Positions 5,666 to 23,190 of a stretch of DNA of 23,190 bases are shown here, in pieces. The position numbers were made by a program, and so were the translations under genes. Numbering within the stretch: position 1 is the stretch's first letter; each line of letters begins with the position of its first letter. Under the pieces are notes generated by a model. It saw only the letters and a list, made by a program, of their open reading frames with translations, searched no databases and was not told where the DNA came from. This stretch comes from a virus: positions 1 to 23,190 of the IMG/VR virus record IMGVR_UViG_3300030339_000244; one strand, given 5' to 3'.

Positions 5666-5684
5666 TATAAAAAGGAATATAAAA

Positions 5685-6155
5685 ATGGAAAAATATATCT
5701 GTGCAATAGATAGTTCTTTAAGCAGGAGTGGAATTGCCATAATGTCAAGAGATGGAAAAATTGTTTTCGTTTCTTCGATACCCACTTCTGCTGATATTCC
5801 AATTCAAAAAAGGCTTGGAATAATTGGGGAAACGCTTTTAAAAATTAGGAAGCAATATCCTTGTGACGTTTTAGCAATCGAGGAAGGTTTCTGTCGTTAT
5901 CACAATGCCACAAAAGCATTATTTAGAGTGAGAGGTGTTATAGAATATATTTTTAAAGATTGTGAAATATATTCATATTCTCCAAGAACTGTAAAAAAAG
6001 TGGTAACAGGAAATGCTAAGGCTGAAAAGGATGAGGTTGCAAATGGGGTACTTAAAATTTATCCCAAGATTAAAATGAATAATACAGATGAGTCAGACTC
6101 CGTTGGGGTTGCCATAACTCACTATAAAATAATATCTGGAGAATATAAATTATGA
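5685..6155 (+). CDS. RuvC-like Holliday junction resolvase
   Basis: A 156-residue protein with the RNase H-like fold of RuvC-type resolvases, which cut four-way DNA junctions in replication, recombination and packaging. Visible acidic residues fit the family: D9 in CAIDSSLSRSGIAI, E66/E67 in LAIEEGF, and D135/D138 in TDESDSVGVA. The basic stretch GNAKAEKDEVANGV before the last aspartates is also typical. Length is close to that of E. coli RuvC (173 residues). The stop overlaps the start of the integrase gene (ATGA), so the two are made together, suggesting joint work on recombination or resolution of phage DNA. A good ribosome binding site (AAAAGGAA) precedes the ATG. Confidence 0.85.
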   Translation: MEKYICAIDSSLSRSGIAIMSRDGKIVFVSSIPTSADIPIQKRLGIIGETLLKIRKQYPCDVLAIEEGFCRYHNATKALFRVRGVIEYIFKDCEIYSYSPRTVKKVVTGNAKAEKDEVANGVLKIYPKIKMNNTDESDSVGVAITHYKIISGEYKL

Positions 6156-7129
6156 TTAAGATTGATGATGTCACAGAAGAAAATTGGAATTCTGTAAATC
6201 CACTAAATAAGAAAATAGTGGAGGAATTTTTAGAACAGTCTACAACATTGAGTGACCAAACATTAAAGCAATATCGTTCATCTTTACAAATTTATTTCTT
6301 CTGGGTAAAAAATAACGCTGGAGACAAATGTTTTCATGAACTCAAGAGTCGCGATTTTTTGTTCTACCAGAACTGGTTAACTAAGATGGAACAGTCTTCC
6401 GCGTCAATTAGATTTAAGAGAAGTGCAGTAAGTAGTTTCAATAACTATGTTTCATTGTTTTATGGGGAGGACTATCCATTATTTAGAAATTATATTTCGA
6501 AAGCAATCCCCCTGCCACCAAGTAATTTTGTGAATGAAAAGAAACCTTTAAATATGGAAGAGTATAAGAACCTTTGTTCTATTTTAGAACAAGAGGAACG
6601 ATGGCAAATTTTAGCATACCTAAAATTTTCTTTTTCAACGGGAGCTAGAAGAAGCGAGGTTAGACAATTACTAAAAGAAGTTGTTGATTATCAACCAAAG
6701 GTTTTAGATTCAAACGACGAAAAGGTAAATGTTTATACTACTCATAAAATCCGGTGCAAAGGCAGAGGAAAAACTGGAAAAATAAGACAATTGAACTTTG
6801 ACCAAGAAGCAATGGACTCAATTAAAAAATGGTTGGAGATAAGGGGAGAAGATGATTGTCCTTATGTTTTTGTAACCAAAGAAAATGGACAATACTCAAA
6901 TGTTGGAGAATCAACATTCAATTCATGGGCAGAAAATCATTTAGAGAGAATTGTTGGTCGCCGGGTTCACCCTCATATTTTGCGCGAGTCGAGGGCAACG
7001 AGTATGGTGGTAGAACAAGGGAAAGATATTTCGTCTGTCCAAAAATTACTCGGCCACATGAGTTCTGCAACTTCAGAAATTTATGTCATTCGTGAAGATA
7101 AAGATGAAGCGGATGATGCTTTTTTATAG
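6152..7129 (+). CDS. Tyrosine recombinase (phage integrase family)
   Basis: A 325-residue protein with both domains of tyrosine recombinases. Residues about 20-120 form the SAM-like DNA-binding domain (TLSDQTLKQYRSSLQIYFFW). Residues about 133-325 form the catalytic domain. The catalytic set is visible: R166 in FSTGARRSEV, a basic strand near 198-212, H275 and R278 in HPHILRESRATSM, H302 in LLGHMSSATSE, and the nucleophile Y311 in EIYVIRE. It starts inside the resolvase stop (ATGA) with GGAG upstream. It sits within the late tail-gene operon rather than beside lysogeny genes, so it may act in resolution, inversion or another late step instead of, or as well as, integration. No attachment site can be proved. 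Confidence 0.9.
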   Translation: MIKIDDVTEENWNSVNPLNKKIVEEFLEQSTTLSDQTLKQYRSSLQIYFFWVKNNAGDKCFHELKSRDFLFYQNWLTKMEQSSASIRFKRSAVSSFNNYVSLFYGEDYPLFRNYISKAIPLPPSNFVNEKKPLNMEEYKNLCSILEQEERWQILAYLKFSFSTGARRSEVRQLLKEVVDYQPKVLDSNDEKVNVYTTHKIRCKGRGKTGKIRQLNFDQEAMDSIKKWLEIRGEDDCPYVFVTKENGQYSNVGESTFNSWAENHLERIVGRRVHPHILRESRATSMVVEQGKDISSVQKLLGHMSSATSEIYVIREDKDEADDAFL

Positions 7130-15449: not shown

Positions 15450-15464
15450 ATAAAGGAGACATAA

Positions 15465-16157
15465 ATGATAACATATTATAGCGCGAATCGTGTTTTAGAT
15501 AGGCTATTCGGAACAACAGCATTTTCACCAGCCACAACTTATTACTTTGGGTTGTCAACAACAACGTTAAATATAGACGGAACTGGAGCGACAAAATAAC
15601 TATCGCAACATATAGTAATATATGGATTGGTTAAATCCAATTAGAATGTATCTATATCGGTTAAAATCCAGAAATGGACAAGACCGAGGAAAGAGCGGAG
15701 TAATCCGCAATCCGTAACGACTACAGGGATTCTATGGCAACATAGTTTCTGAAGATACACTCTCCTTTTATGGGAGATGAATATATAGTCTGAACTGCAA
15801 CTATAATAGAATGAAATTGCAGATTTAGGAAGAAACTCCTAAACGCCTAATTAAAATTAGGTTATAAAAGTAACAGATTGAGAACCGTCGGGTGGTGCTT
15901 ATGCTAGAGTAGCTTTAACGAACGATAAAACAAATTGGGGAGTTGCTTCAAATGGAGCATTAACAAATTTAAACGCAATTACATTTGTTGAAAGTACAGC
16001 ATCTTGGGGAACCATCACATATGTATTTTTAGCAGACGCATTAACGGGAGGTAATATCTGGTTTTACGATGTTCTTTCCCCTGCTAGAACTGTCGCAAGT
16101 GCTACGACCGTACAGTTTGCTATTGGTGCAGTATCCGTAACAATGAATAATACTTAA
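15465..16157 (+). CDS. Tail-fibre-type protein, gene split by a group I intron: join(15465..15592, 15881..16157)
   Basis: Exon 1 starts at the ATG after AAAGGAGAC and encodes a beta-rich N-terminus (ANRVLDRLFGTTAFSPATTY, YFGLSTTTLNIDGTGAT). Read on, it meets a TAA at 15597-15599. Exon 2 resumes the same protein family: EPSGGAYARVALTNDKTNWG, TASWGTITYVFLADALTGGN, and a C-terminus ending in VSVTMNNT*. The joined frame has 134 residues with no stop. This is a widespread phage tail or fibre accessory family with the hallmark 'LFG.TAF.P...Y.GLSTT...DGTG.TEPSG..YARV...N....W.........N...I.F..ATA.WGTI......D...GGN'. The split falls exactly within the most conserved motif, between A-T and E-P-S-G-G. 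Without splicing only a 44-residue product would be made. Splice sites may be off by one base because an A is shared. Confidence 0.85.
15593..15880 (+). ncRNA. Group I self-splicing intron (IA-like), no homing endonuclease
   Basis: A 288-base intron in the fibre gene. Hand-drawn pairings: P1 15588-15592 with 15602-15606; P2 15623-15628 with 15634-15639; P3 TGTATCT 15647-15653 with AGATACA 15753-15759; P4 CGGTT 15658-15662 with GACCG 15682-15686; P5 TCCA 15667-15670 and TGGA 15675-15678 around GAAA; P6 GGA 15688-15690 with TCC 15711-15713, and P6a GCGGA 15695-15699 with TCCGC 15704-15708 around GTAA; P7 GACTA 15719-15723 with TAGTC 15786-15790; P7.1 15724-15729 with 15746-15751; P7.2 CTATG/CATAG around GCAA (15732-15745); P8 TCTCC 15761-15765 with GGAGA 15773-15777; P9 CTGCAA 15795-15800 with TTGCAG 15817-15822; P9.1 15824-15830 with 15837-15843; P9.2 15846-15851 with 15856-15861. 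The core wording AACGACTA and ATATAGTCTG matches the group I R and S elements. The terminal base is G15880. P7.1/P7.2 between P7 and P3' marks subgroup IA. No ORF lies inside. Confidence 0.85.
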
Positions 16158-16173
16158 TAAAGGGAAAATAATA

Positions 16174-16659
16174 ATGACAGGAAATAGAAAATCATTTTCC
16201 CTAATAATCAAAGAAAGAAAATCCTTTAATGTAATTTTGAGTTATTTTGATTTCGCAATCACTTTTTTATTTTCCATAAAACAGAAAATAAGTCTTTCTT
16301 ATGTGATGAGTACCCTGTCTAAAATATCTCAATCTTTTTATATAAAAAAGATAAGAATATCCATATTGTCTTTTAAACTATTCATAAGAATATTTCAATT
16401 AATTAATATTAAAAGAATAAAACTATCCATAGTATTGAGACAGATAATGAGGTTTGTAATAGTCCCGAAACTTCAAATAGATTTATCGGCATATTCAATT
16501 TTACGACAAAAAATTTTATCATCCATAATATTGAAGAGAATAAAATTAAACTTAACGGCTGTTTTAGCTACATTCTATCCCCTCTCCACTTATGACCCAC
16601 AATCGTTATTAACGCTTGATTCAAAAACATTGGGTGAAATGGATTATACTGCCATATAA
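16174..16659 (+). CDS. Repetitive basic beta-strand protein in the fibre cluster
   Basis: A 161-residue protein with AAAGGGAAA upstream. It is made of about five to seven repeats of 19-22 residues, each starting with a K/R-rich then alternating hydrophobic strand: KQKISLSYVMSTL, KKIRISILSFKLF, KRIKLSIVLRQIM, KLQIDLSAYSILRQ, KRIKLNLTAVLAT. The N-terminus shows shorter copies (RKSFSLIIKERKSFNVIL). The C-terminus (YDPQSLLTLDSKTLGEMDYT) matches a wording found at the ends of small phage tail proteins. The pattern looks like stacked beta strands in a trimeric fibre or spacer rather than a membrane protein, despite high hydrophobicity. Its function is unknown. It is encoded among fibre genes and probably belongs to the virion or its assembly. 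Confidence 0.65.
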   Translation: MTGNRKSFSLIIKERKSFNVILSYFDFAITFLFSIKQKISLSYVMSTLSKISQSFYIKKIRISILSFKLFIRIFQLINIKRIKLSIVLRQIMRFVIVPKLQIDLSAYSILRQKILSSIILKRIKLNLTAVLATFYPLSTYDPQSLLTLDSKTLGEMDYTAI

Positions 16660-18736: not shown

Positions 18737-19333
18737 TTATCGTGATGTACTTCCTAGCCCACCTTTTCTTTTTTTTCCAATAAAACTATCTCCGTCGATT
18801 AACTTGTAATCCTCGAAACTACCTTGTGCGAAAGCATCATTCTTATTTATTGTAACTGGAATATTCCCCTCATTTCTAACTTTTATCCAAATATGTCCTT
18901 CTGTTTCTTCGCTATCAATGTAATCCGAATCAATTTTTCCAATCGTATTTGCGAGGCGAAGATAATACTTAAAGCCTAATCCACTTCGGGGAGAGATTTC
19001 AAACTTCTCACCATCTAACATATACGTTTTAATTCCAGTCGGAACTTTTATGTCTTCTCCGGGTTTAAGTACAAAACCAATTGGTGAAAAAATATCATAG
19101 CCACCACTTTTTGCCGTTGCCCTAGATGGAAATTTTATATCCTCATATTTTATAATGTTGGGATAGTCTGGTTTCAAAGCATCCTTATTCCACTGCTTGA
19201 GAGAAATCTTTCTAAATCCTCTTTTCGATTGAGTTTTTGATAAGATTATTCCCGATATATACCACATGAACTCAAACAATAAAAATGTTGCAATTCCGCC
19301 GCAAAAAACCTTAACCCAGTAATCAGAAAGCAT
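18737..19333 (-). CDS. dut: dUTP diphosphatase with N-terminal membrane segment
   Basis: A 198-residue dUTPase (dUTP to dUMP plus pyrophosphate), which keeps uracil out of DNA and supplies dUMP for dTTP. Trimeric dUTPase motifs are present: motif 1 ATAKSGGYDIF (residues 72-82), motif 2 SPRSGLGF (114-121), motif 3 LANTIGKIDSDY (127-138) with the catalytic D135, motif 4 AFAQGSF (167-173), and motif 5 KRKGGLGSTSR at the C-terminus. After motif 3 the usual arginine of DYRG is replaced (DYID). The first 31 residues are extra, with a hydrophobic stretch VFCGGIATFLLFEFMWYISG that can span the membrane. The start is well supported by AGGAG ten bases upstream, so the segment is not an artefact of start choice. 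No other gene overlaps. Confidence 0.9.
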   Translation of the reverse strand: MLSDYWVKVFCGGIATFLLFEFMWYISGIILSKTQSKRGFRKISLKQWNKDALKPDYPNIIKYEDIKFPSRATAKSGGYDIFSPIGFVLKPGEDIKVPTGIKTYMLDGEKFEISPRSGLGFKYYLRLANTIGKIDSDYIDSEETEGHIWIKVRNEGNIPVTINKNDAFAQGSFEDYKLIDGDSFIGKKRKGGLGSTSR

Positions 19334-19389
19334 ATGTTCGTTTCTCCTATTTCATTTCAAAATAACCCAAAAATCTTTCAAATTTCATA

Positions 19390-19419
19390 ACTACGATAAA
19401 ATCGACATTTTATCGTAGT
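19390..19419. repeat. Perfect 13-bp inverted repeat in a 214-base gap
   Basis: ACTACGATAAAAT at 19390-19402 and ATTTTATCGTAGT at 19407-19419 are perfect reverse complements around a 4-base loop. It lies in the 214-base non-coding gap (19334-19547) upstream of the dUTPase start. No U-run follows on either strand, so it is not a typical terminator. The core matches the repeated motif GATAAAA-N6-TTTTATC. It could be an operator, an RNA hairpin, or, with 11-bp arms and an 8-base centre, a recombinase core site. Confidence 0.7.
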
Positions 19420-19509
19420 ATTTGACCGTTTTATACCCCCATATACAGACAAAATAAGCATTTTTAGTATATTAAGTCTATATATGGTTTCGTATAGTTT
19501 AGTAATTTA

Positions 19510-19529
19510 TCACTTCTACAAAAAAGTGA
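19510..19529. repeat. Small stem-loop downstream of the 19548 gene
   Basis: TCACTT at 19510-19515 pairs with AAGTGA at 19524-19529, loop of eight bases. It lies 19 bases past the stop of the leftward gene ending at 19548. On the plus strand it is followed by CTTTTT, so it would look like a terminator only in the direction opposite to the local genes. Its significance is uncertain. Confidence 0.3.
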
Positions 19530-19547
19530 CTTTTTACGACTTCCCAC

Positions 19548-19877
19548 CTACTTAATTGTAACTCGTGCAGGTTTCGGCGCACCTTTGGGAACTTCAACTT
19601 GCAATGCTTCACAAACTTCCTTCCACTTTACAGAAGGTTCTTGTTCCTTGGAATATGGTGAAAGGTCAAATCCATCAGGCATATTTACTTTTGCTACTTG
19701 TTCATAATCGGGGGTTTCAAATCCTTCTGAAAAATACTTTGCTGTAACACCAGCAATCTTTGAAGATTCCTTGCGTTCAAGGATTTCCTCTTCAATTTTC
19801 TTTGAAATCTCTTCTTGTTGTTTTCCGTGTTCCGCATACTCAATAAAAAGTTGAGCAAATTCCATTTCCGATAACAT
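19548..19877 (-). CDS. Hypothetical acidic protein
   Basis: A 109-residue protein with no recognised family. The first half is helical and charged (FIEYAEHGKQQEEISKKIEE, EILERKESSK); the second is proline-rich (MPDGFDLSPYSKEQEPSVKW, VEVPKGAPKPARVTIK), so it may be partly disordered. The ATG follows directly after the stop of the upstream gene, and the AAAGGAG site lies inside that gene, showing tight operon structure. The role is unknown; it may be a small phage host-interaction factor. Confidence 0.65.
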   Translation of the reverse strand: MLSEMEFAQLFIEYAEHGKQQEEISKKIEEEILERKESSKIAGVTAKYFSEGFETPDYEQVAKVNMPDGFDLSPYSKEQEPSVKWKEVCEALQVEVPKGAPKPARVTIK

Positions 19878-20141
19878 TTAATTATTCTCCTTTATTTCTC
19901 TAAAAATTTGAAAAAATTTACTTCCATCTGCTTCAACATAAACACTTCTAAAAAATGACGAGTGAGAGTTATACCATTTCTTATTGGGACAAATAGATTT
20001 ACACTTAACTAGCTTATCCCCCGTTTTTACATCATACTTGTGAAAAATAAAATTATCGTCAAGTTCGGAACCACATTTTTCACAATATAATTCTTCTACA
20101 TTTTCTCCCCAGTGTCCATTACTTATATATATATATTTCAT
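19878..20141 (-). CDS. Small protein with paired cysteines
   Basis: An 87-residue protein. I choose the ATG at 20141 over the TTG 21 bases upstream because CGGAG lies 7 bases before it. It has C20-x2-C23 (YCEKCGSE) and C47-x3-C51 (KCKSICPNKK), a likely zinc site, and a tyrosine- and phenylalanine-rich C-terminus (FFRSVYVEADGSKFFQIFRE). No family is recognised. Small cysteine-paired proteins of this size are common in phage early operons. Confidence 0.65.
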   Translation of the reverse strand: MKYIYISNGHWGENVEELYCEKCGSELDDNFIFHKYDVKTGDKLVKCKSICPNKKWYNSHSSFFRSVYVEADGSKFFQIFREIKENN

Positions 20142-20152
20142 ATCACATCTCC

Positions 20153-20172
20153 GATAAAACAATTATTTTATC
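20153..20172. repeat. GATAAAA-N6-TTTTATC motif, perfect 7-bp arms
   Basis: GATAAAA-CAATTA-TTTTATC fills the gap between the 60-residue gene (its stop TAA is part of the arm) and the ribosome binding site of the cysteine-pair gene. Confidence 0.6.
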
Positions 20173-20350
20173 CAAACCTGTTTGTAAACATCCTGTTAAT
20201 AAACAAGATACTATTTCCGCCAATCTCAATTTCCCGACTTTCTTTGATTGCCTTTTCTACACCTTTGAATAAATTCTCTGCATAGTGAGGAAGGGTTGAA
20301 AGCATATTCCTGTTTCTTAGCATATAAATTTTACCTTCAATTTCTTTCAT
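20168..20350 (-). CDS. Small hypothetical protein coupled to the methyltransferase
   Basis: A 60-residue basic protein (MKEIEGKIYMLRNRNMLSTL, HYAENLFKGVEKAIKESREI). Its ATG shares one base with the methyltransferase stop (TAATG), and GGAG lies just upstream inside that gene, so it is translated together with it. No domain is recognised. The 26 bases between its stop and the next start form one copy of the GATAAAA-N6-TTTTATC motif. Confidence 0.55.
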   Translation of the reverse strand: MKEIEGKIYMLRNRNMLSTLPHYAENLFKGVEKAIKESREIEIGGNSILFINRMFTNRFG

Positions 20351-21033
20351 TATTTGTCTCCTCCGAAAATGTTTTGTTTCCCATAACGAAAAACTTCTTC
20401 GTCATATTCAATACCCGTATAGTTCATATTGTTATTTTTAGACCATAAACCCAAAGAAAACGTTCCACCAAAAGGGTCAAATATTTCATTATGTTCATCA
20501 TCCACAAATGGGGCAATAATTCTGTCATATAATTTTAAAGGCTTTTGCCAACGTATCAAGTGACCATCATCTTTCTTAACTCTTTCCAGAGCAGTTGTTG
20601 TAAGAGTGCAATCGTCAATCCATGCTGTAGCCTGTTTAGTTTCTCTACCTGAAGGATTCAAACCCTTGTTTTTTGTGACTTTCGGAACTTGAATTTTTTC
20701 TGGATGAAACACCCATTTCTCGGAATTTGAATAAATGATTACATTGTCAAAACACTGATGAAATTTATTGCGAGGATGGTTTCCCCACTCGCACTTAAGA
20801 ACTGCATCATTTACCAATATTCCACCGCAAACATCCTCAACAAAAACCCGGTATCTATGATTTGTATGCCAATCTGTCTGAGCAATAAAAACAGAATTAG
20901 GTTTCATATATTTCCAGAATTTTTCAACCCAATTGAAGTTCTTGTCTTCATAAATATAATCGGCGTAAATTACATCAAATTTCTTATATGGTTGATAAGC
21001 CATATTATCCATATTGTGAATATCAATTGTCAT
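20350..21033 (-). CDS. Beta-class DNA methyltransferase (N6-adenine or N4-cytosine)
   Basis: A 227-residue S-adenosylmethionine-dependent DNA methyltransferase. I place the start at the ATG at 21033, eight bases after AGGAAA, rather than at the GTG at 21066. Motif IV comes first (DVIYADYIYED, residues 20-30, where DYIY stands in place of DPPY) and motif I near the end (FDPFGGTFSLGLWS, 185-198), which is the beta-class order. Between them the wording LNPSGRETKQATAWIDD and RVKKDDGHLIRWQKPLKL is characteristic of a phage methyltransferase family and is the likely target-recognition part. No restriction endonuclease gene is adjacent, so it is an orphan, suited to protecting phage DNA from host restriction. 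Confidence 0.85.
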   Translation of the reverse strand: MTIDIHNMDNMAYQPYKKFDVIYADYIYEDKNFNWVEKFWKYMKPNSVFIAQTDWHTNHRYRVFVEDVCGGILVNDAVLKCEWGNHPRNKFHQCFDNVIIYSNSEKWVFHPEKIQVPKVTKNKGLNPSGRETKQATAWIDDCTLTTTALERVKKDDGHLIRWQKPLKLYDRIIAPFVDDEHNEIFDPFGGTFSLGLWSKNNNMNYTGIEYDEEVFRYGKQNIFGGDK

Positions 21034-21128
21034 TAAAGATTTCCTATGATGATATAATATAAACACTTTAGAAAAGTTTTTATTTCCATATAAACCCTTC
21101 TAATGAATTGAAATAAATAAAATGTCAT
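21033..21128 (-). CDS. Candidate small ORF overlapping the methyltransferase start
   Basis: A 31-codon frame beginning at an ATG with AAAGGAAAG about five bases upstream and ending in TAATG shared with the methyltransferase start. The predicted peptide (MTFYLFQFIRRVYMEIKTFL and so on, ending IIIGNL) is hydrophobic with a few basic residues and might be membrane-associated. The good ribosome binding site and precise stop-start overlap suggest translation, either as a real small protein or as a leader that couples translation of the methyltransferase. Confidence 0.4.
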   Translation of the reverse strand: MTFYLFQFIRRVYMEIKTFLKCLYYIIIGNL

Positions 21129-21145
21129 AAAACTTTCCTTTTATC
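21126..21145. repeat. ATAAAA-N6-TTTTAT motif over a start codon
   Basis: CATAAAA-CTTTCC-TTTTATC on the plus strand. On the coding strand the centre GGAAAG is the ribosome binding site of the 31-codon ORF and its ATG lies in the right arm. Confidence 0.55.
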
Positions 21146-21149
21146 GCAG

Positions 21150-21380
21150 TTATTTTTTCCAAACATAAATTTGCTTGTCTGGGTGAACATACTTGTTGAC
21201 CTGCTTAAGAGTAGAATCGTTAGTTCTTTCTAATCTAGCGAACTTTACGGAATTTCTATTTAGAGAATAGCCCAAACAAATCCATAAATCTCCATCAGAA
21301 GTAAAAGAAAATAAGTTATCTAAGTAGTTTTCCGAAGCAATCTCGTGAGCGGAAATGATTTTTAAACTATGTTTCGTCAT
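21150..21380 (-). CDS. Small hypothetical phage protein
   Basis: A 76-residue protein with no recognised domain (KIISAHEIASENYLDNLFSF, DGDLWICLGYSLNRNSVKFA, KYVHPDKQIYVWKK). The ATG is 3 bases after the upstream stop, so it is probably co-translated. It shows a mixed alpha/beta pattern. Neighbouring genes are small early-type phage proteins of similar size. Confidence 0.6.
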   Translation of the reverse strand: MTKHSLKIISAHEIASENYLDNLFSFTSDGDLWICLGYSLNRNSVKFARLERTNDSTLKQVNKYVHPDKQIYVWKK

Positions 21381-21383
21381 AAT

Positions 21384-21665
21384 TTACTCTACATGTTTAG
21401 TTACGGTTATATAGCAGGGATATGTCATTTCTATAGCATATCCTGTTTCTACCAAATTCTTTGCAACCTGCCTATATATGTATAGGTCTGGGGTTAGATA
21501 AGAATTATGTGAATTTACAACCTCCACGATAATTCCATCTTCTGTTTTTTCTAATTGAAAAGAAGGAGTTTCCTTATCAATAATTTTTAACCCGTTATGA
21601 TAACCGAATGACAGAAGTGTTTTTAGTATTTGCAAATTTAGAACGTCTATTTTTTCTTTTCTCAT
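21384..21665 (-). CDS. Small hypothetical phage protein
   Basis: A 93-residue protein. I take the ATG at 21665, which overlaps the upstream stop as ATGA, rather than the TTG twelve bases earlier. The sequence is alpha/beta (VLNLQILKTLLSFGYHNGLK, QLEKTEDGIIVEVVNSHNSY, YAIEMTYPCYITVTKHVE) and could form a small single domain. No family is recognised. Confidence 0.6.
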   Translation of the reverse strand: MRKEKIDVLNLQILKTLLSFGYHNGLKIIDKETPSFQLEKTEDGIIVEVVNSHNSYLTPDLYIYRQVAKNLVETGYAIEMTYPCYITVTKHVE

Positions 21666-21862
21666 GTCGGTGTCCAAGTTTCAACGTTTATTCTTTCTGC
21701 ATCTTTTTTTTCAATCCAAGCACAACCGTCAGCCAATTCGTATAATTTCTTATTTTTAGAATTGTTTTTTACTAGAAAAACATTCCCTATAAATTTGTTA
21801 TACCAATAACCACTTTCTTTTTCATTCTCTTTATTTACTCTAACATAAAAATATTTTGTCAT
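21662..21862 (-). CDS. Small hypothetical phage protein
   Basis: A 66-residue protein rich in aromatic residues (YFYVRVNKENEKESGYWYNK, CAWIEKKDAERINVETWTPT). Its start codon lies inside one copy of the ATAAAA-N6-TTTTAT motif: the ribosome binding AAAAGG is in the loop region and the ATG is in the right arm. Its stop overlaps the next start. No family is recognised. Confidence 0.6.
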   Translation of the reverse strand: MTKYFYVRVNKENEKESGYWYNKFIGNVFLVKNNSKNKKLYELADGCAWIEKKDAERINVETWTPT

Positions 21863-21879
21863 AAAATTGACCTTTTATT
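21860..21879. repeat. ATAAAA-N6-TTTTAT motif over a start codon
   Basis: CATAAAA-TTGACC-TTTTATT on the plus strand. On the coding strand the ribosome binding bases are in the centre and the ATG of the 66-residue gene is in the right arm, so a hairpin here would cover the start. Confidence 0.55.
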
Positions 21880-22081
21880 ACACTTTCACAAACCAATCAG
21901 AATCGTACCCAACAATCTTTTTTCCATCTCTGTCCTTAACATCTACAATCCACCCGCTTTGGCTAATTTTCGGATATGATTCTAAGACTGAACAAACGGT
22001 AAAGATTTTTCTTGATAGTTTTTCATTCCAAATTTCCCACATTTTAACTCTTTCACCTACTTCGAATGGCTTATTTTTCAT
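21878..22081 (-). CDS. Small SH3/KOW-like protein
   Basis: A 67-residue protein with GAGGAAAAAATA before its ATG. It begins with the pattern PFEVGERVKMWEIWNEK, then FTVCSVLESYP, ISQSGWIVDVKDRDGKKIVG and YDSDWFVKV. This is the shape of a small SH3-like or KOW-like beta barrel, as found in many small phage proteins. The assignment is structural guesswork; the gene itself looks real by spacing and ribosome binding site. Confidence 0.6.
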   Translation of the reverse strand: MKNKPFEVGERVKMWEIWNEKLSRKIFTVCSVLESYPKISQSGWIVDVKDRDGKKIVGYDSDWFVKV

Positions 22082-22092
22082 TATTTTTTCCT

Positions 22093-22112
22093 CATCAAAT
22101 AGTTATTTTATC
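22093..22112. repeat. ATAAAA-N6-TTTTAT motif, imperfect copy
   Basis: CATCAAA-TAGTTA-TTTTATC, between the stop of the kinase-like gene and the start of the next gene. One arm differs at two positions. Confidence 0.4.
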
Positions 22113-22548
22113 ACACACCATAATCATAACAAATCAATTTGCCGTTTTCCAAAACACCATAATTTCTATCGCTGTCAACGTCACATATATTATAACTTTC
22201 CATTACGTCAAAAAACTCGTCTTTCAATTTCTTATCAATTTGAGTAAGGTATGCCTCTTTTATTTTCATTCTTGGTTGTATCACATATTTGTATTTACCG
22301 CATCGTCCAACCTTCAGCAAGGGGACGAAATAATCTTTGTGACATTGTTTTATATTTTTAAACCATAAGGCTTTTTCGGAATCTGTTTGTCCTAAACCCT
22401 TCTGTTGGCTTTTATTCTCCAATTTTACGACATGATTTTTTCCGAAAAATAAAAATCTAGAAGACTGTTTTGCATAACTCCTCACAAGTTTTTCTTCATC
22501 TAAATACACGGTAATTCTTCCACTACTTTCAGTTATTGTTACTTTCAT
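22111..22548 (-). CDS. Miniature protein-kinase-like protein
   Basis: A 145-residue protein. The ATG at 22548, preceded by GGGAG, is preferred over the TTG twelve bases upstream. The order of motifs follows the kinase fold: a strand lysine K42 in NHVVKLEN, an acidic helix with E58 (TDSEKALWF), a hinge-like YKYVIQPRMKI (residues 86-96), DVDSDRNYGVLENGK (123-137) resembling the catalytic loop D...N, and D142-Y143-G144 resembling DFG, where the protein ends. A full kinase is about twice as long, so the C-lobe after DFG is missing. It may be a reduced pseudokinase-type protein. No other hint of substrate is available. Confidence 0.6.
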   Translation of the reverse strand: MKVTITESSGRITVYLDEEKLVRSYAKQSSRFLFFGKNHVVKLENKSQQKGLGQTDSEKALWFKNIKQCHKDYFVPLLKVGRCGKYKYVIQPRMKIKEAYLTQIDKKLKDEFFDVMESYNICDVDSDRNYGVLENGKLICYDYGV

Positions 22549-22567
22549 AAATACTCCCAAGAATTAG

Positions 22568-22599
22568 AATTACCCCATCTTATCACGGATGGGGTAATT
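22568..22599 (-). terminator. Probable terminator after the ribonucleotide reductase gene
   Basis: AATTACCCCATC at 22568-22579 pairs perfectly with GATGGGGTAATT at 22588-22599, 12 bp with an 8-base loop. It lies 35 bases past the nrdJ stop and before the ribosome binding site of the next gene. In the leftward direction only a mixed CTAATTCTT follows the stem, so termination may be partial. Confidence 0.6.
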
Positions 22600-22618
22600 T
22601 GTCAAGGGTCTATTTCAC

Positions 22619-22638
22619 AATAAAAGAGTCATTTTATG
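22619..22638. repeat. ATAAAA-N6-TTTTAT motif, copy at the nrdJ stop
   Basis: AATAAAA-GAGTCA-TTTTATG on the plus strand. It overlaps the stop codon of nrdJ and precedes the terminator stem. One of seven junction copies discussed in the findings. Confidence 0.55.
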
Positions 22639-23190
22639 ATGGTTTTTCGAGAATTTGAAATGACTTGCTGTTGTTCCTGTAAATAGTCCCACCTTTTAAT
22701 CCCATCTTCCACATGTACAAATAAGCATCATAAATATCTTGTGGAGTCGATTTTTCAGGTAAGTTTACAGTTTTTGAAATTGCATTGGAAAACCACTTTT
22801 GCCAGACTGCTTGCATATCTATGTGATTTTTCCAATCTATTTCATTTGCTGTTTTGAATAAATCTTGCAACTCTTTATTAACTAATTTGCACCCAGTCAT
22901 TGTCCCATGCTTATTTACATACTCCATAATTTCAATAATTGTTTCAGGAGTATATTTATGTTCTTTTAACTTACTTTCTAGAACTGGATTTATTTCAAAC
23001 AAAGAATCCTTTGCAATGTTACCCACACCTTCAGTTATATTCCTTTTGTAAGCCAAAGCAAAAAATGGTTCAATTGAGGAATTGACACCACCCAAAAGAG
23101 CAATACTTCCCGTAGGAGCCACAGAAGAAACCGCAACATTTCTTACACCGGTTTCATACAAATCGGATGGAGAAATCTCGGACTTACCAA
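22634..23190 (-). CDS. nrdJ: Adenosylcobalamin-dependent (class II) ribonucleotide reductase, C-terminal part
   Basis: The 3' end of a ribonucleotide reductase gene; the frame stays open to the right edge, so the start is outside the window and the TTG at 23161 is internal. The conserved finger-loop region reads VAVSSVAPTGSIALLGGVNS then SIEPFFALAYKRN, and the end reads TPQDIYDAYLYMWKMGLKGG followed by TIYRNNSKSFQIL. This wording is that of the B12-dependent NrdJ type, which makes deoxyribonucleotides from ribonucleotides in the cytoplasm without oxygen. The protein stops soon after the YRNNS motif and lacks the C-terminal cysteine-rich tail found in many NrdJ proteins. It fits with the dUTPase in a nucleotide-supply operon. 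Confidence 0.88.
   Translation of the reverse strand, partial: GKSEISPSDLYETGVRNVAVSSVAPTGSIALLGGVNSSIEPFFALAYKRNITEGVGNIAKDSLFEINPVLESKLKEHKYTPETIIEIMEYVNKHGTMTGCKLVNKELQDLFKTANEIDWKNHIDMQAVWQKWFSNAISKTVNLPEKSTPQDIYDAYLYMWKMGLKGGTIYRNNSKSFQILEKPS

Follow-up and report, generated by a model that had tools for sequence, protein, structure and literature searches.

Phage introns have mostly been reported in genes of nucleotide and DNA metabolism, and the reason for this is an open question (PMC11878797). A 2025 survey of the Bastillevirinae encountered no introns outside nucleotide, polymerase and terminase genes, asked why, and noted that the Rfam group I model is incomplete (PMC11878797). Reviews hold a U-G pair at the splice site to be strictly required or critical for group I introns (PMC6155759, PMC8395846). 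Collaborative or trans homing combines an ORF-less intron with a free-standing endonuclease (PMC2988022, PMC3984707), and reverse splicing is a described route into new genes (PMC3679873). Group I introns are already well known; new here are the locus, which is of interest in itself, and the unusual pair predicted at the splice site.

The window analysed here is the whole 23,190-nucleotide stretch of viral DNA. We consider it very likely that a Gp80-type tail-fibre gene in this window is split, between the second and third bases of its Thr43 codon, by a group I intron that is autocatalytic and lacks an ORF, and we infer the splicing of this intron, its use of a C-A pair and its endonuclease-aided spread.

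The split fibre gene and the identity of its intron

On the plus strand, not one ORF of at least 50 aa was called between 15450 and 16173. The reading frame opening with the ATG at 15465 meets an in-frame TAA (15597-15599) inside the intron, and the frame of exon 2 has a TGA (15879-15881) immediately upstream and no usable start; the stop inside the intron and the missing start are as the original prediction had described. Joining the exons at 15592/15881 leads to a 134-residue protein with a full-length profile match to PF23140 (Gp80, podophage GP4 fibre protein) of 107.7 bits (cut-off 27), compared to 25 and 71 bits for the halves searched apart, in agreement with the joined fibre protein that had been proposed. 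The protein also matches PHROG 240 and the solved virion-associated protein 8jou (E 2.2e-6), and its gene was placed in a siphovirus-like tail cluster. The predicted boundaries hold as well. The junction 15592/15881 aligns gap-free to two syntenic siblings, L134 and L002, and is the only one among the alternative junctions listed by hand that retains both Glu44 and the terminal G of the intron. Comparison of both exons with the siblings gave dN values of 0.16-0.30 and dS values of 1.4-2.1, with no frameshift or stop. By these values exon 1 and exon 2 are both under purifying selection, i.e. both halves are kept as protein, with dN/dS being an average across the whole divergence in which a very recent loss would stay invisible.

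Elsewhere in the window, positions 16174-16659 encode a 161-aa protein of unknown family with a C-terminal DPQ(S/T)L..TLD..TLG.MDY motif common to both siblings. Within the structural region, a RuvC-like gene (5685-6155) is directly followed by a tyrosine recombinase gene (6152-7129), and the opposite strand at 18737-23188 carries genes for a DNA methylase and for a dUTPase with an N-terminal hydrophobic stretch, together with the terminal part of a ribonucleotide reductase gene.

A search with Rfam at its gathering threshold gave no match; the general group I model RF00028 scored the intron at 21.8 bits (E 0.0033) with a gathering score of 50, a threshold that is a search criterion and not a biological one. 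On Rfam alone, the intron would be a weak case. The RNA fold of the intron had a z of -4.7, and none of 100 shuffles was equally good. A covariance model, R2, trained on L217, L221, L003 and L004 only, with the window sequence left out, matched 15642-15880 with 193.4 bits (E 2.3e-51) and ended exactly at the terminal G, with the second-best place within the window at 10.8 bits. The check that had been suggested, with the Rfam model, thus stayed below the cut-off; a covariance-model match was nevertheless obtained with R2, and the outcome named beforehand as refuting, no such match at all, did not occur. For four full-length members, RNAalifold finds P2, P4, P5, P6, P6a, P7, P7.2, P8, P9, P9.1 and P9.2, and at 32 of the 68 predicted pairs one or more of the four sequences differ in both bases. 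P3, a pseudoknot that RNAalifold does not draw, is different in all six sequences and pairs at 38 of 38 positions (45% with swapped partners), in a check that leans towards pairing as the strands were picked by eye.

All helices from P1 to P9.2 are present as originally drawn, and so are the P3-P9 core with the guanosine site in P7, the terminal G and the in-frame exon junction. An extra hairpin, P7.1/P7.2, lies between P7 and P3 and agrees with the proposed group IA-like layout, this subgroup assignment being by layout only and the hairpin being absent in L004, L020 and L021. With the R2 match and the covarying helices, 15593-15880 is, as judged from its sequence, the group I intron that had been predicted. 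Because a sibling gene lacks the intron and purifying selection acts on both exons, it is very probably still spliced and active. Coordinates are collected in the table.

Table. Coordinates of the fibre gene, the intron and related features (window positions unless a locus is named).
Feature	Position	Strand	Details	Basis
Shine-Dalgarno-like AGGAGA	15454..15459	+	ahead of fibre gene	sequence
Exon 1 of fibre gene	15465..15592	+	codons 1-42 and AC of Thr43	
Group I intron	15593..15880	+	288 nt, terminal G 15880	
Exon 2 of fibre gene	15881..16157	+	last base of Thr43 and invariant Glu44 up to TAA 16155-16157	
P1	15588..15606	+	GCGAC 15588-15592 / AUCGC 15602-15606; in-frame TAA in loop	
Possible P10	15600..15601	+	2 pairs only, CU with exon-2 AG 15881-15882	sequence; inference
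P2 and P2.1	15609..15642	+	P2 CAUAUA-GUAA-UAUAUG, 15609-15624; P2.1 15625-15642	
P3	15647..15759	+	15647-15653 / 15753-15759	
P4 and P5	15657..15687	+	P4 15657-15661/15683-15687; P5 15667-15670/15675-15678	
P6a	15695..15708	+	short hairpin, GUAA loop; site of the endonuclease-like ORFs of L003, L004 and L215	
P7 (guanosine site)	15719..15790	+	GACUA 15719-15723 / UAGUC 15786-15790	
P7.1/P7.2 hairpin	15725..15751	+	group IA-like; CUAUG-GCAA-CAUAG, 15732-15745	
P8	15760..15777	+		
P9, P9.1 and P9.2	15795..15861	+	P9 15795-15799/15818-15822; P9.1 15824-15830/15837-15843; P9.2 15846-15850/15857-15861	
GIY-YIG/NUMOD3 endonuclease gene	L002:727-1536		just upstream of L002 fibre gene	
GIY-YIG endonuclease gene	L134:2070-2993		directly upstream of intron-free L134 fibre gene	
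ORF-free intron of L239	L239:1501-1784	minus		
phrog_559-type endonuclease gene	L239:243-1163	minus	free-standing, adjoining the intron-bearing gene of L239	

The splice-site pair and rival explanations

In the proposed mechanism, the transcript would fold and a guanosine bound in P7 would attack after C15592, with the pair C15592-A15602 in P1 being recognised as a wobble in place of the usual U-G. The freed exon 1 would then attack after the terminal G15880 and join AC/A GAA CCG to give ...GAT-EPSGG... in the protein. On unspliced RNA, ribosomes would halt at the TAA in the P1 loop, and therefore only spliced mRNA would yield the 134-residue fibre. Spread of the intron might be aided by free-standing endonucleases in related phages, by collaborative or trans homing. 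Points against this mechanism are the Rfam score below the cut-off, the P10 of only two pairs, the strictness with which the literature requires U-G, the single contig and an endonuclease gene missing from the 23 kb.

P1 is present in the window with a predicted C-A in place of U-G at the 5' splice site, no other pair being compatible with both the protein and the terminal G, and this pair is the fifth from the bottom, a position as in most relatives. In eight relatives (L239, L217, L221a, L221b, L003, L004, L215 and L218) exon 1 ends in GGU, the guide starts with GCC and the pair is U-G. For L217, L221a, L239, L004, L215 and L218, translation through the spliced junction stays in frame and gives a protein that is in most cases a tape measure, and the junctions of L003 and L221b were read by eye. 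Where the relatives have G as guide base the window has A, and were A15602 misread for G, the pair would be C-G, again not U-G. Of the fibre homologues, 160 of 167 have Thr at residue 43 and 168 of 169 have Glu at residue 44, and 162 of 167 have C as the middle base of codon 43; therefore, the protein fixes the C. The missing U-G was not treated as excluding group I membership, because core, terminal G and junction are all in place and C-A is another wobble pair. In 1989, Doudna, Cormack and Szostak reportedly observed cleavage at wobble pairs in general, with the Tetrahymena ribozyme recognising such a pair, C-A included, about five pairs up P1, which would make splicing via C15592-A15602 plausible. 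A natural C-A splice-site pair was not found in searches of the open-access literature, which is not evidence of absence.

The original prediction had allowed for a relic, and a decaying intron that has lost splicing, or splices poorly through loss of the U-G, in a phage living with a broken fibre gene, would fit a splice-site pair other than U-G, the minimal P10 and the absent endonuclease ORF. We regard such decay as unlikely, given that all helices are intact, that dN is well below dS in both exons and neither has a frameshift or stop, and that the changes in exon base and guide base go together and yield another wobble. Also, the introns of L217, L221a and L239 are likewise ORF-free, so that the ORF-free state is ordinary and an empty P6 is no sign of decay. 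Less probable still is splicing one base further, at 15593/15882, with an A at the 5' splice site. Such a junction would lead to the identical protein product, and A15593 could pair with U15601; however, the intron would end in A where all eight relatives have a terminal G, and no wobble, U-G or other, would stand at the splice site. The intron allele at codon 43 was seen on one contig only, as might be expected for two separate genes or an assembly insertion artefact, but the match of an independent ribozyme model, the exact in-frame join and the existence of intron-free orthologues make an explanation without any intron hardly credible.

We therefore prefer a spliced intron, and about an even chance is given to its fullest form, namely a working natural group I intron in which U-G was swapped for a similarly shaped C-A wobble because the Thr codon fixes the C at the exon end, belonging to a lineage that repeatedly invades phage tail genes and residing at an intron and endonuclease hotspot, the fibre gene. 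The C-A pair, the tail-gene lineage, and the second intron and endonuclease genes of the siblings at the same locus had gone unnoticed in the original prediction.

Sibling loci, intron lineage and mobility

L134 is located on a 147,646-bp contig, probably of a phage, that was binned in a soil Bacteroidetes MAG. The fibre gene of L134 has no interruption, shows 74% protein identity and has the same neighbours on both sides, and thus provides the intron-less relative that had been sought as a check. In L002, a 4.25-kb viral contig, the fibre gene is uninterrupted at codon 43, but its codon 8 is followed by another group I intron, which is 314 nt long (L002:1564-1877; RF00028 30.8 bits, E 4e-6), with GCAAAU/GUUUGC as P1 (read by eye); the general Rfam model missed this intron in a joint search of several loci, and a focused search was needed. 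In both siblings, a GIY-YIG endonuclease gene, with 32% identity between the two, separates the fibre gene from its upstream neighbour, whereas the window has no gene at the matching place. No intron at the same site was detected with model R2 in 67 loci comprising siblings and fibre homologues. Pattern-scan matches for the same insertion site were rejected as coding-sequence coincidences only.

At the DNA level, the intron resembles one that interrupts the tape-measure gene of Thomasclavelia phage TR-TP1 (70% over the 3' 60%), and the search also led to Microcystis phage MaeS. L217, L221, L215 and L218 were added by scanning viral contigs for a sequence pattern; most matches of the 3'-end pattern scan were rejected as chance. 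The 3' ends of the relatives are similar to that of the window intron, with AACAGATTG or a close variant. When five introns were compared with that of the window over their full length, identities ranged from 58 to 69%, with L239 being closest (69%). L239 resides on the same contig as the intron-less sibling L134, and its intron, placed after codon 146, interrupts a 215-residue gene that matches no family. The phrog_559-type endonuclease encoded next to this gene and the one that the TR-TP1 intron encodes within P6 are 46% identical across 117 residues, and endonucleases of one family are intron-encoded in L003 and free-standing in L239.

Among the nine lineage members, P6 of L003, L004 and L215 holds endonuclease-like ORFs and L218 carries another ORF, and the introns of the window, L217, L221a, L221b and L239 (281-308 nt) have no room for an endonuclease ORF. 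Six of the introns sit in tape-measure genes. The other three targets are the window fibre gene, the unassigned gene of L239 and, in L217, a gene for a virion protein that was read as tail tube, and by these assignments the lineage appears to sit mainly in phage tail structural genes. On L221, two ORF-free lineage introns (5934-6224 and 6408-6715) occur within one tape-measure gene, and the same contig has a third match at another place (G004:C1:66262-66458, minus strand). In L021, an apparent capsid gene harbours two group I-like introns within about 1 kb (around 5680-5930 and 6450-6685, reverse complement).

In line with the predicted lack of a homing endonuclease, no endonuclease gene was found in the 23-kb window, and the homing-endonuclease proteins of the relatives give no convincing match there. 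Mobilisation in trans, the other option of the original prediction, by free-standing endonucleases in related phages would fit collaborative or trans homing, as suggested by the gene neighbourhoods, and the lineage could have moved into new genes by reverse splicing.

Comparison with known systems

The C-A site represents a natural test of whether group I recognition depends on the wobble shape or on the letters U and G, and the fibre gene, with no intron, the window's intron or the other intron in different siblings, represents a natural homing experiment.

With subgroup IA introns (RF00028; phage T4 td/nrdB/nrdD type) the window intron shares the P1-P9.2 layout, the P7 guanosine site, the terminal G and P7.1/P7.2. 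In contrast to them, it scores under the Rfam cut-off, has a predicted C-A at the 5' splice site and resides in a fibre gene, not in a nucleotide-metabolism gene. Like the lineage introns L217, L221a/b, L239, L003, L004, L215 and L218, it lies in a phage structural gene, an apparent one in some of these relatives, whereas theirs are other insertion sites with a U-G pair, and L003, L004 and L215 have endonuclease-like ORFs in P6. Collaborative or trans homing is resembled in the ORF-less introns and in the GIY-YIG and phrog_559-type free-standing genes beside intron-target genes in the siblings; however, the window has no endonuclease gene, and the resemblance in the siblings is one of gene neighbourhood. 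The joined protein resembles PF23140 Gp80 (podophage GP4 fibre I protein) over its full length, but the window gene is split by an intron and belongs to a siphovirus-like tail cluster.
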